Source: Planctomycetota bacterium
GTDB lineage: Bacteria; Planctomycetota; Planctomycetia; Gemmatales; Gemmataceae
Direction: 5' to 3'
Length of the DNA stretch: 41,076 nucleotides
Assembly: GCA_021807595.1 (NCBI GenBank)
Contig: JAKBCS010000035.1
Coordinates: forward strand, 1 to 41,076
Shown here piece by piece: positions 34,324 through 39,297 of this stretch. Below the pieces are notes generated by a model. That model ran no database searches and was not told the DNA's origin. It worked only from the letters and a program-made list of their open reading frames with translations. Made by a program: the position numbers and the translations under genes. Numbering within the stretch: position 1 is the first letter of the stretch; every line of letters begins with the position of its first letter.

Positions 34324-34495
34324 CCTTGCTAATGTCCCTCCCGCTTAAGGGGTAAAACTCGATCGAAAAGCCGCAGGGCGAGCGTCTGGATCTCGACGAG
34401 ACGTTCGGACCCTGAAAGTGATTCTATTTTCGATTTCGGTTTTGGGGTTCGAGTTTTCGGCAAGGGTGGTTCTCTGGAGGGGAAAGGGACACGCC

Positions 34496-35512
34496 ATGAT
34501 GACTTCCGTTTCGCCACACGCGCCGGTCAGATTGAATCCGACTCGGCAGCAACTCGATGAACTCGACTCGCTGCTCCAGCGCATGCTGGAGCTTCCGGTC
34601 AATACGCTCGATGAAGAAGAGGAAATGGAAGCCGAGGCAGCGCGGATGGAGCCGCCTTTGCCTCCCATGCCTCCACCTGCTTCGCCGCCGCCTCCCGTTC
34701 TGCCGGTGCGCGAACCGAGGTCCGCTCCTCACGTTTCGTACACGGTGGTCGAGACGGCCAGTCCTCGCCCGATTCCCGCAGCATCGGGCTTCGAGCCGCG
34801 ACCGTCGATGCTCTCGCCTCGCCTTGTGCCCGTGACGACGCCCAGCGAAGCCGTTGAGGACGATGCCGAACCGTTTGCGCCTCCGACTCCACCGCCGTTG
34901 GCCGAATCGCCGCTGCCAACGCCGATGATCGCTCCGCAGATGCCGTTCGACTCGGAATCGCCGGAACACGAGGCGGAACTGTGGGTTCCGTTGCGTTCCA
35001 CCTGGCAGCCCTCGGCCCACACTTGGCAGCCCCTGGCCGAAAGCTGGCTTCAGGCCAACGAGGGAGACGTTTCACCCATCCATGGCACCCACCCCCTGCC
35101 GATGCCGGGGCCTGGCTTGGAACCGATGCCTGTCGGCGAGACGATGTTCTCAAGCCCCGTCCCGCAGCCTCCGTCGCCTCCTGCTCCACCGTCGCTCGAT
35201 GAGAGACCCGCCTCGACGCTCGCGGATCAAATTGCAGACAAAGAGGAGATTGAAAAGAGCGTATCGAGAGAGTCGGCCGTGGAACCTCCTTTGCTTCTGA
35301 CTTCGGAGGATGCTCCCCGTTCCGCTCCGCTCGCCCTCTTGCCGTTGGTTTGGTTCAATCGAGGTTTCGATGCTTGTATGTCCCCGCTGGGAGCTCCCGG
35401 ACGTTGGGCGTGCGGCCCGCGCGGACGGCAACTGCTCGGTCTCGCCGGTTTGGCATCGCTGGCCGCCGCCGCCATCCTCGCTTTGGGCGCGGGAATGGGT
35501 TGGTGTTGGTGA
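34496..35512 (+). CDS. Pro-rich protein with C-terminal membrane helix
   Basis: The ATG at 34496 gives 338 residues. A short helical start (LNPTRQQLDELDSLLQRMLE) is followed by about 240 residues rich in Pro, Ser and Glu (for example PPLPPMPPPASPPPP), and then a C-terminal hydrophobic helix (LLGLAGLASLAAAAILALGA) ending GMGWCW. The layout of a short structured head, a long disordered linker and a single tail anchor suggests a spacer or docking protein on the inside of the membrane, like the HTH protein at 24925. I recognise no family. It is separated by 99 bases from the five-gene run that follows. Confidence 0.75.
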   Translation: MMTSVSPHAPVRLNPTRQQLDELDSLLQRMLELPVNTLDEEEEMEAEAARMEPPLPPMPPPASPPPPVLPVREPRSAPHVSYTVVETASPRPIPAASGFEPRPSMLSPRLVPVTTPSEAVEDDAEPFAPPTPPPLAESPLPTPMIAPQMPFDSESPEHEAELWVPLRSTWQPSAHTWQPLAESWLQANEGDVSPIHGTHPLPMPGPGLEPMPVGETMFSSPVPQPPSPPAPPSLDERPASTLADQIADKEEIEKSVSRESAVEPPLLLTSEDAPRSAPLALLPLVWFNRGFDACMSPLGAPGRWACGPRGRQLLGLAGLASLAAAAILALGAGMGWCW

Positions 35513-35611: not shown

Positions 35612-36238
35612 ATGTCGAACGTCCCGGTCGATGCCAACGCCTTGACGCACGAAGATCCGCCCACCAATCCGTTCGCCGCCTTCCTCAGCTATCTCATCCC
35701 AGGATTGGGACAGATTTATCAGGGGCGCATCGGCAAGGGGTTGCTCTTCTTCGTCTGCGTCTACACGTTGTTTTTCATGGGAACCTATTTCGGTAGCGGA
35801 ACAGCCCAGATCAAAACCAAAGCCTCCGACGATCCCATCGCGTACGAGGAAGAAGTCTACACGGTGACGAGCAATGTTTATCTGCCCGATACCGCCGAGC
35901 AAAACAATCCGTTCAACCTTCCGCGCGTCCTGGCCAATTTGTACAACCGACCGCAGTTCGCCGGTCAGTTTTGGGTCGGAATCGCGGCTTGGCCGGCGAT
36001 CTGGCAATACATCAACTACAATCGACGGCAGGATCACGGCGACACTTTCCTGGCCGACTTTCAACGAACACCCAACGACAAATCGTTGAATGCCCTGCAT
36101 ACCAGCGGAGACAAAACGCTGGAGTTGGCATGGGTATTCACCGTCATCGCCGGCGTTCTCAACGTCATGGTGATTTACGATGCCTTGGCCGGTCCCGCTT
36201 TCCCGCCGGGCACGGATCAAGACGAAGCGACGGCTTAA
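35612..36238 (+). CDS. TM2-like/DUF6677-type membrane protein
   Basis: The ATG at 35612 (GGGAG about 6 bases upstream) gives 208 residues. A first helix pair, AAFLSYLIPGLGQIYQGRIG then KGLLFFVCVYTLFFMG, matches the TM2-like consensus of planctomycete DUF6677 proteins (PGxGQxYxGRxxKG). A soluble loop of about 60 residues and two more hydrophobic segments (FWVGIAAWPAIWQYI, WVFTVIAGVLNVMVIYDAL) follow. The function is unknown. It is the first gene of a five-gene run in which neighbouring genes lie within 20 bases or overlap. Confidence 0.83.
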   Translation: MSNVPVDANALTHEDPPTNPFAAFLSYLIPGLGQIYQGRIGKGLLFFVCVYTLFFMGTYFGSGTAQIKTKASDDPIAYEEEVYTVTSNVYLPDTAEQNNPFNLPRVLANLYNRPQFAGQFWVGIAAWPAIWQYINYNRRQDHGDTFLADFQRTPNDKSLNALHTSGDKTLELAWVFTVIAGVLNVMVIYDALAGPAFPPGTDQDEATA

Positions 36239-36249
36239 TCCAGGAGACG

Positions 36250-36516
36250 ATGGGATCAACCGGAAGCGCAAGCGAACCGATTTCGGACGAGGCACGGCGA
36301 GAAAGGCAGCGCGACATGCACACATTTTTACCCAATCACAATCTGTATTTCGTCGAGTTACCTATTCTCATCGTGTTAATCAGCCTGGTTTACAGTGCCA
36401 CGCGCTTCGACGAATGGCGTCCCATTCTGTTGGAGGCACTGCGGTGGGGAATGCGCCTGGTTCTCTTCCTGTTCTTCATCGGATTCGTTTTGTACATCCT
36501 CGACCGCATCACATGA
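36250..36516 (+). CDS. small membrane protein, 88 aa
   Basis: The ATG at 36250 is 12 bases after the DUF6677 stop and has AGGAG 3 bases upstream, a tight spacing. A second in-frame ATG at 36316 would give 66 residues. The product has an acidic/basic head (SDEARRERQRDMH) and two hydrophobic segments (YFVELPILIVLISLVYSA and LVLFLFFIGFVLYILDRI). No family is recognised. It is always likely to be translated with its neighbours. Confidence 0.75.
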   Translation: MGSTGSASEPISDEARRERQRDMHTFLPNHNLYFVELPILIVLISLVYSATRFDEWRPILLEALRWGMRLVLFLFFIGFVLYILDRIT

Positions 36517-36526
36517 CGCCATCACC

Positions 36527-37960
36527 ATGAGCGAGGAACAGCCCCACGATCCGTCGGCCAAGCGCGAACGGCGACTGGCGAAACACTTTCGCTGGCAAGC
36601 CTTTTTTGAGCGCTGCGCCGAACCGCTGTTCGTCCTCGATCGGCGCGGTCGCTTGCTCTTCGTCAATCGAGCCTGGGAGACGCTGACTGGGCTGGGACTG
36701 GAAGATGCTCACCTTCTCGTTTGTCGGCGGTACAAGCCCGTTGGGCCAGACGATCCGCTCGAAGAAACCTTGGCTCACGCATTGACGCCGCCGCCGGATG
36801 TGCGGCGCGGTGGAATGGGCCGCGTTCGGCGCTGGATTCCCGGATCGGGCGGCGCGAGTCGTTGCTGGGAAATCGAGTTTCTCCCCTTGTTGCAAGAAGG
36901 GGAACGGGGCGGCTACCTCTTCGTGGGACGCATTCATCCTCTCGACGAAACCGAGGCTGCTCCTCTTACCTCCCTTTCGGAGAAACTGATCGACCTGCGG
37001 CAGCGCCGCATCGAACGCTTTCGTCTCGAAGATTGGTACAGTACCCTTCCGGCCATGCAGCGTCTCGTCGAGCAAGCTCGCTTGGCAATTCAGGTGAAGG
37101 CCCCCGTTCTGTTCGTTGGCGAAGCGGGTACGGGCAAGCAGACCTTGGCGCGGACGGTCCACTTTCTCGGCATCCAGCGCGAGGAGGCGTGTGCCTTTCT
37201 CGACTGCCAGCATCTACCCCCCGCCGCGTTGGCCGCGTTGCTGTTCGGACCGCGCGGCGGTCGCGAACACTTCACCGCCATCTATCTCCGCGAACCGGCC
37301 TCGTTGCCGCGCGATCTTCAGTTACGCTTGGTGGATACCGTACGAAGTATGGCGGCGGGAGAGTCCCGCCTGCGCGTCTTCGCGGGATGCCGACAGAAGC
37401 CGGAGCAAGCCGTCCGCGAGGGCCGATTGTTAGAGGAACTGGCTTACGCGCTCGGTACGCTTGTCCTCGACTTGCCGCCGCTGCGCGAACGCCAGGGCGA
37501 CTTGCAGGCGCTCGTCGATCGCTTGCTCGCACGCGCCTGCGTCGGCCGCGAGACGCGTGTCGCCGGACTCGACGCGGACGCCTGGACCATGTTGCGAGAT
37601 TACGCTTGGCCGGGCAACGTCCGCGAGTTGTACCATGTCCTTCGATCCGCCTGCGCGCGGACCAATGGAACCCAAATTCGCGCCGCCGATCTTCCCTCCA
37701 GTCTTCGCCGCGCCGTGGAACGCGAGAAGTCTCCACCGAACAACCGGCCGGGGGAACTGCCGCTGGAACAACTTCTCGAAGAAGCCGAACGCCGTCTCAT
37801 TCAACTCGCCCTCCAGCGCGCCGGCGGCAAAAAGGCGCTGGCGGCGCGCCTGCTGTCGATCCCTCGACCGCGGTTGTGGCGGCGGATGATTAAGCTCGGC
37901 ATCGTCGATACCGAAGGACCGGACGATGCGAGGGAGGGCAGCGTGACGAGCGAAGAATAA
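36527..37960 (+). CDS. PAS-AAA+-Fis regulator resembling sigma54 activators, ATPase and sigma54-contact motifs lost
   Basis: The ATG at 36527 gives 477 residues. A PAS-like domain (FFERCAEPLFVLDRRGRLLF, about 26-135) is followed by an AAA+ core and a Fis-type HTH (EEAERRLIQLALQRAGGKKA, then LAARLLSIPRPRLWRRMIKL). Walker A is intact (GEAGTGKQ, 198-205), as are LPPLRER and WPGNVRELYHVLR. The GAFTGA loop that contacts sigma54 is absent: LFGPRGGREHFTA stands there. Walker B, usually GTLFLDE, reads AIYLREP (251-257). The arginine-finger segment FREDLYYRL reads LLEELAYAL (301-309). It should bind nucleotide and DNA but not drive sigma54 open-complex formation. It sits in the middle of the five-gene run. 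Confidence 0.9.
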   Translation: MSEEQPHDPSAKRERRLAKHFRWQAFFERCAEPLFVLDRRGRLLFVNRAWETLTGLGLEDAHLLVCRRYKPVGPDDPLEETLAHALTPPPDVRRGGMGRVRRWIPGSGGASRCWEIEFLPLLQEGERGGYLFVGRIHPLDETEAAPLTSLSEKLIDLRQRRIERFRLEDWYSTLPAMQRLVEQARLAIQVKAPVLFVGEAGTGKQTLARTVHFLGIQREEACAFLDCQHLPPAALAALLFGPRGGREHFTAIYLREPASLPRDLQLRLVDTVRSMAAGESRLRVFAGCRQKPEQAVREGRLLEELAYALGTLVLDLPPLRERQGDLQALVDRLLARACVGRETRVAGLDADAWTMLRDYAWPGNVRELYHVLRSACARTNGTQIRAADLPSSLRRAVEREKSPPNNRPGELPLEQLLEEAERRLIQLALQRAGGKKALAARLLSIPRPRLWRRMIKLGIVDTEGPDDAREGSVTSEE

Positions 37961-37979
37961 TCGGCAAGAGGAAGAGGAT

Positions 37980-38381
37980 ATGCACTGTCCGCAATTACTC
38001 GTTTATGAAACGGATCGACGGTTGGCGACGATGTTGCAACCGCTGGCCGACAAACGCCAATGGTTGTTGCGCGAGCCGCGCCAACTGTCGGCTTGTCTGC
38101 GGCTGTTCGATCGACGCGGCCCCGGAGTTCTCGCGATGCGTCCAAGCCGCGAGGTGGAGCGCGAATTGGCCCTTCTCGAACAGGTGGCATGGCTGCACCC
38201 AGAGGCGGCTCTCCTCCTCGTTCTCGATGTAGAGCAGCTGGGATTATCGAGCCTGGCGTGGGATTTGAGCGCAAGCTGGATCTTATCGCCGCCGCACACG
38301 CGCGAACGGGTGACGGAGCTAGTGGATCATCTGATGCGACAATTCGAGCCGTCCACCTCTGCTACGAAAGATGGAAGATGA
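37980..38381 (+). CDS. receiver-like hypothetical protein, 133 aa
   Basis: The ATG at 37980 has a strong purine-rich site (AGAGGAAGAGGAT). The 133 residues alternate helices and strands like a response-regulator receiver: LLVYETDRRLATMLQPLA, PGVLAMRPSREVERELALL, HPEAALLLVLDVEQLGL and LSASWILSPPHTRERVTELV. The phospho-acceptor Asp and the usual acidic pair cannot be placed, so this would be a degenerate receiver, or a different alpha/beta fold. The stop overlaps the next start in an ATGA, so it is coupled to the ferredoxin. Confidence 0.75.
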   Translation: MHCPQLLVYETDRRLATMLQPLADKRQWLLREPRQLSACLRLFDRRGPGVLAMRPSREVERELALLEQVAWLHPEAALLLVLDVEQLGLSSLAWDLSASWILSPPHTRERVTELVDHLMRQFEPSTSATKDGR

Positions 38382-38566
38382 TCGAACTTCCCCTTCTCGA
38401 CGAGACACGCTGCCATCGCTGCGCCGATTGTGTTGCCGTCTGTCCCACGAAGTGTCTGTCAATGCGTGCCGACGGTCCATTCTTGAACCTTCCGCCCGCG
38501 TGCGTTAGTTGTGGACTGTGTGTTCTTGTCTGTCCGAGCGCGGCGTTGAGCCTGGCCGCGGTGTGA
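38378..38566 (+). CDS. 2[4Fe-4S] ferredoxin-like protein, 62 aa
   Basis: The ATG at 38378 overlaps the preceding TGA (ATGA). The 62 residues hold two full cluster motifs, CHRCADCVAVCP (about 12-23) and CVSCGLCVLVCP (about 42-53), each C-x2-C-x2-C-x3-CP. The spacing and length are those of a bacterial 2[4Fe-4S] ferredoxin, a low-potential electron carrier in the cytoplasm. The start MIELPLLDETRCHRC has no signal. Genes for a partner oxidoreductase are not adjacent, so its redox partner, or a sensory role for the neighbouring regulator, is open. It is the last gene of the run. Confidence 0.92.
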   Translation: MIELPLLDETRCHRCADCVAVCPTKCLSMRADGPFLNLPPACVSCGLCVLVCPSAALSLAAV

Positions 38567-38658: not shown

Positions 38659-39297
38659 TTACTTGGCCTGCGCGGTTTGCACCGTTTCGGACAACAAGCT
38701 GCGGAAATCGGCGCGAGCGATCTCGCCGGCGCGAACGATGACGCGGCGGGTCTGCGAAACCGGCTTGCCGTCGCGGATCGTCTCCACGCGCACCATGTAG
38801 TAGTACGATTGGCCGACTTCCAACGTCGGCGTGTTGAAGCTACGAACGCCGGGCGCGGCTTTCAGCTGCACATCGTCGATGAACAGCTTGGCATCGGCGG
38901 GCACTTCGACGACGAGCTTAGCCTTCGACGGTGAAAGATAAACGCCTTTCTTGGTCTCCTTGGGAGCGGGGATCGATTCCGCCGGAGGAGTGCCACCGGC
39001 GGGAGGCATTCCCGGTTGGGAGATCGAACCCGGATAGGTGGGCGCGCCGTAGTAGGTTCCCATGCAGCCGGCGCTCCAACTGCTATAGCCGCCCCAGCAT
39101 CCGCCGTAGCAGCTCCCCCAGCAGCCGCCGTAGCATCCACCACCGCCACCGTAACAACCGCCATAGCACCCACCACCGTAGCAGCCGCCATAGCACCCAC
39201 CATGACAACCACAGTAGTTGCTGTAACCACAGCAACGATGGCAGTCCGGCGTCGCGCTGCCTGCCGTCAAGGCCGCCATCAAGACCACGCTGTACAT
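38659..39297 (-). CDS. Gly/Cys-rich exported protein with TIGR03000-like domain
   Basis: The protein has 212 residues. It opens with a short hydrophobic start (MYSVVLMAALTAGSATP), a possible signal peptide. About 70 residues built of imperfect GGCYGGCYG units (about 18-85) follow, a short Pro-rich link, and a C-terminal domain of about 80 residues (LVVEVPADAKLFIDDVQLKA, TPTLEVGQSYYYMVRVE, RRVIVRAGEIARADF). That last domain matches the planctomycete TIGR03000 domain, known mainly from Gemmata relatives. Such proteins are thought to lie in the cell envelope, where the Cys-rich stretch could cross-link. A sigma70-like promoter (39387-39415) lies about 90 bases upstream. Confidence 0.9.
   Translation of the reverse strand: MYSVVLMAALTAGSATPDCHRCCGYSNYCGCHGGCYGGCYGGGCYGGCYGGGGGCYGGCWGSCYGGCWGGYSSWSAGCMGTYYGAPTYPGSISQPGMPPAGGTPPAESIPAPKETKKGVYLSPSKAKLVVEVPADAKLFIDDVQLKAAPGVRSFNTPTLEVGQSYYYMVRVETIRDGKPVSQTRRVIVRAGEIARADFRSLLSETVQTAQAK

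Follow-up and report, generated by a model that had tools for sequence, protein, structure and literature searches.

A planctomycete gene unit of a degenerate NtrC-type regulator and a predicted pseudo-receiver, with neighbouring genes for respiratory and Fe-S proteins

Gene layout of the locus

The window analysed here is a single contig of 41,076 nucleotides from a planctomycete of the family Gemmataceae. It contains a run of five open reading frames, A to E, which are all located on the plus strand between positions 35612 and 38566. Gene A (35612..36238) codes for a DUF6677 membrane protein of 208 aa (Pfam PF20382, E 1.3e-22) and gene B (36250..36516) for a small membrane protein of 88 aa, which belongs to no named family and gave no match in Pfam or NCBIfam. 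They are followed by C (36527..37960), a regulator of 477 aa with a PAS region, an AAA+ domain predicted to be ATPase-dead and a Fis-type helix-turn-helix (HTH), by D (37980..38381), a predicted stand-alone pseudo-receiver of 133 aa, and by E (38378..38566), a 2[4Fe-4S]-type ferredoxin of 62 aa with nine conserved cysteines. The intergenic gaps comprise 11 bases between A and B, 10 between B and C and 19 between C and D, and the genes D and E overlap by four bases (ATGA). These reading frames, gaps and the overlap had been described in an earlier note on this DNA and were confirmed in every position. The tight spacing is conserved across many genomes and speaks for the co-transcription proposed there; judged from this arrangement, A to E are likely transcribed together. 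A scan of the plus strand revealed no promoter-like sites, and terminator-like sites were fewer than in shuffled sequences. On the left side the run is preceded by a gene for a proline-rich protein, designated 'up' (34418..35512, plus strand), which is a neighbour of A-B and stands outside C-D-E. On the right side it is followed by a gene for a TIGR03000 (plancto_dom_1) protein at 38659-39297 on the minus strand.

Properties of the proteins C, D and E

According to Pfam, C is composed of a PAS region, a degenerate sigma54 AAA domain, AAA_lid_14 and a Fis HTH (HTH_8). The PAS region comprises about residues 21-141 (36587..36949; matches of PF13188, PF00989 and PF08448 at residues 22-135). It has low-to-medium confidence in the structure model and no cofactor could be inferred for it. 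The Walker A motif GEAGTGK is kept (residues 198-204, 37118..37138). Alignment with L004, an intact paralogue encoded in the same genome, located the deletion of the GAFTGA loop at GPRGGREHFT, about residues 241-250 (37247..37276). The intact paralogue shows the order GHEKGAFTGA...GTLFLDE...GRFRSDLYYRL, whereas C contains FGPRGG-REHFTAIYLREP and GRLLEELAYAL instead. The Walker B motif of C, AIYLREP (residues 251-257, 37277..37297), is degenerate, since the catalytic Asp is exchanged for Arg255 (YLREP compared with FLDE in the paralogue), and both the first and the second arginine of the finger motif are missing from C of the window. Among 25 C proteins from Gemmataceae the Walker B Asp at position 255 is retained in two, the first finger arginine in one and the second in seven. 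In the same set G198 and G203 of Walker A are invariant and K204 is found in 23. The GAFTGA loop is present in 15 paralogues from the window's own genome and absent from C and from the aligned C proteins of the whole class, in which most of Walker B has also disappeared and the WPGN.REL-like and Fis HTH motifs are kept. The HTH itself (residues 417-460, 37775..37906; HTH_8 E 2.5e-9) belongs to the best-kept parts of C, with R447 and R453 invariant, and this points to DNA binding. In the diverged C of genome G058 (L089 5369-6820, minus strand) even Walker A is lost (FAGSTATERC), with both HTH and gene order preserved.

Of the features of a bEBP, C thus possesses an AAA+ domain with Walker A, the lid and the Fis HTH, and lacks the GAFTGA loop, the Walker B Asp and the arginine fingers. 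Because the loop, the Walker B Asp and the first arginine finger are lost, C is not expected to function as an activator of the sigma54 polymerase. The proposal that C is a disabled regulator of the sigma54 type is supported by the comparison with the intact paralogue, and the label 'sigma54-dependent regulator' would be wrong for proteins of this kind. A loop-less AAA+ domain combined with an HTH is the arrangement of VpsR and of the loop-less NtrC proteins, and C shares it. VpsR was also recovered as a PDB profile match for C and as a fold match for D.

Protein D alone has no Pfam match. A profile built from D matched best the receivers of Spo0A and NtrC1 in the PDB, with E-values of about 2e-6 to 3e-6. 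The AF2 model of D (pLDDT 82) retrieved the receivers of NtrX, HupR, NtrC1 and VpsR in a Foldseek search, with TM values of 0.6-0.7 and modest E-values. Both the profile matches and the predicted fold are in agreement with the earlier description of D as receiver-like. The position of the phospho-Asp is occupied by R, Q, K, V or T in 27 of 27 sequences; at the position of the conserved Lys a proline is found in 23 of 27 and a lysine in none, and D does not have the phospho-Asp, Thr/Ser and Lys that characterize a phosphorylatable receiver. Proteins with a receiver fold in which one or more of the five active-site residues are missing are defined as pseudo-receivers (PMC12632262), and by this definition D, as predicted from its sequence and model, is an aspartate-less pseudo-receiver. 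A classical two-component arrangement was not found, as D has no phosphorylation site and the five-gene run contains no histidine kinase; a widely conserved kinase neighbour was not seen within about 4 kb either. D-like proteins outside the Gemmataceae (for example L119 3051-3506) have in common a C-terminal tail with a short LPW-like motif at its end, which is absent from D of the Gemmataceae.

Protein E was assigned by Pfam to the dicluster ferredoxins (Fer4). It has two CxxCxxCxxxC(P) motifs, as expected for a 2[4Fe-4S] protein. In 22 sequences the cysteines 12, 18, 22, 26, 42, 45, 48 and 52 are invariant and Cys15 is found in 20, so that one of the eight ligand cysteines is replaced in two sequences; the ninth cysteine is the invariant Cys26. 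E resembles the 7Fe/8Fe dicluster ferredoxins (Azotobacter FdI, FdxA type) in the two-cluster cysteine pattern and in the extra cysteine after CPxxC, and FdI was among the PDB matches of the E profile; Cys26 presumably corresponds to the extra cysteine of FdI. E differs from these proteins in the CxxCxxC spacing at the first cluster, which favours the 2[4Fe-4S] type, and in being encoded together with a regulator.

Conservation and gene context

The earlier note had suggested that the gene order be followed in related genomes. Of 42 loci examined in Gemmataceae, 13 have the complete order A-B-C-D-E, among them that of the diverged G058, and the order recurs in a looser form in G022, G024 and G027; the protein identity in loci with recurring order is mostly 30-50%. 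Together with the co-occurrence of C and D described below, this conservation greatly exceeds what chance would produce. A and B are both present at 22 of 41 C loci in Gemmataceae and 'up' at 21 of 41. B is a single-copy gene detected in 83 of 95 Gemmataceae genomes; of the 25 genomes without C and D, 17 also contain it. Three of the latter (G068, G071, G080) show RsmE, 'up', A and B in a row, with TIGR03000 immediately behind B. In the window this place between B and TIGR03000 is occupied by C-D-E, which accordingly behaves as a cassette beside A-B. In several Gemmata-type genomes A-B and C-D-E are far apart, and in G060 they are oriented towards each other. The idea that A-B is a constant component of the module was rejected, since A-B with the same flanks, including the adjoining 'up', is present in genomes without C-D-E. 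The membership of the two membrane proteins, as assumed in the note, is consequently not supported; the five-gene run consists of two separable units, A-B and C-D(-E). No conserved partners of the Gemmataceae C-D-E were seen beyond A, B, 'up', RsmE and sometimes TIGR03000.

C was found in 66 and D in 69 of the 95 Gemmataceae genomes. Both occur together in 65 genomes, one of them alone in 5 and neither in 25 (Fisher p about 1e-17, uncorrected for kinship). The pair lies usually beside A-B, or elsewhere, and mostly has ferredoxin E next to it. In 13 of the 65 genomes both genes were detected but not at a distance of 5 kb or less; the assemblies concerned are in part fragmented, while others consist of a single contig (G051, G087). 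The Gemmata-type genomes G010 and G012 (L062, L065) have 0.6-2 kb inserted between C and D and an acetolactate-synthase-like ORF close to D-E. E follows directly after D in 38 of 45 D loci and is missing from this place in the other 7. The linkage of D and E mostly survives the separation of D from C, often with the ATGA overlap, and E was not detected beside C-D outside the Gemmataceae. Ferredoxin E is thus tied less strictly to the unit than D.

A weak match of D in genome G107, which belongs to another family, drew attention to a locus that contains C, D and apbC/mrp. The C protein of this locus was used as query for a search of 198 genomes of the class (E up to 1e-40); 37 of them gave a match, in each case a single one. 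We examined the gene context of 33 C loci outside the Gemmataceae, with the identities of NuoM, NuoN and ApbC taken from NCBIfam. The gene apbC is located within 5 kb of C in 16 of the 33 loci, 15 times downstream on the same strand and once divergently, usually with D in between. The genes nuoM-nuoN are located upstream of C in 9 loci, and in 7 of these nuoN is the adjoining gene; in G175 and G245 nuoN ends 2-3 kb from C. Six of the 33 loci have both nuoM-nuoN and apbC. A D-like protein follows C in at least 12 loci, some of them recognised by eye only, and in several genomes of the class no D, nuo or apbC could be recognised in addition to C. Loci with the nuo/apbC context are spread over several families, and this provides independent support for the proposed link to redox or Fe-S metabolism. 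No nuo or apbC gene was seen near C-D-E in the Gemmataceae loci examined, and in the window's genome nuoN and an apbC-like gene are located on other contigs than C-D-E.

For a phylogenetic analysis the AAA and HTH columns of 35 C proteins and 15 full-length, GAFTGA-bearing paralogues were used. The tree separated the C proteins from the intact paralogues with a support of 100/100, and the C proteins of Gemmataceae formed one clade (100/98). All paralogues come from the single genome of the window, which restricts the power of this comparison. The C proteins appear as a class-wide planctomycete branch of NtrC-type proteins that lost the sigma54 engine, kept the DNA-binding domain and often have a detached pseudo-receiver as partner.

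Proposed function and alternative explanations

Since genes for complex I, an Fe-S carrier and a ferredoxin adjoin C-D, the redox or Fe-S status is the most likely signal of this unit. We tentatively propose, with a probability of about 0.45, that C-D(-E) is a phosphorylation-free and sigma54-independent planctomycete regulator tied to the status of complex I and Fe-S proteins. The ancestor of the unit would be a sigma54 activator of the NtrC type. By its Fis HTH, C probably binds DNA, and it would be unable to remodel the sigma54 polymerase. It probably acts at sigma70-type promoters, as activator or as repressor, by analogy to VpsR and the GAFTGA-less NtrC proteins of Rhodobacter and Caulobacter, for which activity at sigma70 promoters independent of ATP hydrolysis is reported (PMC10274813). 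D, encoded as a protein of its own, probably attaches to C and controls the assembly state of C, with no phosphorylation involved. The gene neighbours suggest that the unit probably responds to the redox or Fe-S state of the respiratory chain, and in Gemmataceae the ferredoxin E may deliver electrons, or information on its clusters, to D or C. Of the redox module at the membrane reporting to a DNA-bound regulator, which had been offered as one reading of the locus, the redox or Fe-S link is retained in our proposal and the membrane proteins A and B are not. The literature leaves open by what means pseudo-receivers are switched (PMC12632262); for C-D the gene context provides a candidate signal, the status of complex I or of Fe-S proteins.

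The single parts of C-D-E are of known kinds; their combination and the class-wide conservation appear to be new. Like C, the loop-less NtrC proteins and VpsR are NtrC-type regulators without the sigma54 loop. They differ from C-D in having the receiver in the same chain, where C carries a PAS region and the receiver D is separate, and in the importance of the receiver Asp for their function, which is gone in D. To our knowledge no Fe-S partner of these proteins has been described. RitR and HP1021 are similar to D in having a receiver fold without the phosphorylation residues, and some aspartate-less receiver proteins are redox sensors (PMC12632262, PMC5965902). RitR and HP1021, however, combine DNA binding and cysteine-based sensing in one chain, whereas D is stand-alone and has no conserved cysteine. 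The Mrp/ApbC/Ind1 Fe-S carriers, the genes of which take the position after C-D outside the Gemmataceae, are not homologous to E. A literature search, thin on subscription papers, found nothing on DUF6677 or on this unit, in line with the statement of the note that the gene set matches no described system.

It is possible, if somewhat unlikely, that C-D is a regulator as proposed and that E is an ordinary electron carrier sharing the transcript, while C senses a PAS ligand or a nucleotide. The PAS region and the nucleotide-binding Walker A are both kept, and the loci in which E is missing from its place beside D or C-D would fit such an independent carrier. This explanation does not account well for the persistence of the D-E linkage at loci where D has left C, nor for the finding that elsewhere in the class apbC, the gene of another Fe-S protein, occupies the place of E. 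A further reading, that C, D and E are joined in one complex with the ferredoxin as its signal-bearing subunit, we regard as doubtful. Here complex I or the Fe-S supply would feed the redox or cluster state of E, D would read this state, and C would thereby be switched. If this is true, an Fe-S protein and not phosphate would drive such a response regulator. Still less probable is that C-D does not regulate transcription and instead serves complex I and Fe-S proteins as an accessory factor or in their assembly. The gene order nuoM-nuoN-C-D-apbC is compatible with it, and the apbC/mrp homologue Ind1/NUBPL is a mitochondrial assembly factor required for complex I (PMC6196649), but the strong conservation of the Fis HTH argues for DNA binding. 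A single membrane-redox module of all five genes, with A-B as membrane sensor, is very improbable, as the recurring A-B-C-D-E order that favours it is outweighed by the genomes in which A-B occurs without C-D-E or at a distance from it.

Two further observations concern the flanking genes. The protein 'up' ends in a hydrophobic C-terminal region, matches no Pfam family and is conserved in Gemmataceae between rsmE and A-B. The TIGR03000 protein has an N-terminal half rich in Gly, Tyr and Cys, and in several genomes its gene forms the right-hand border of the C-D-E cassette.
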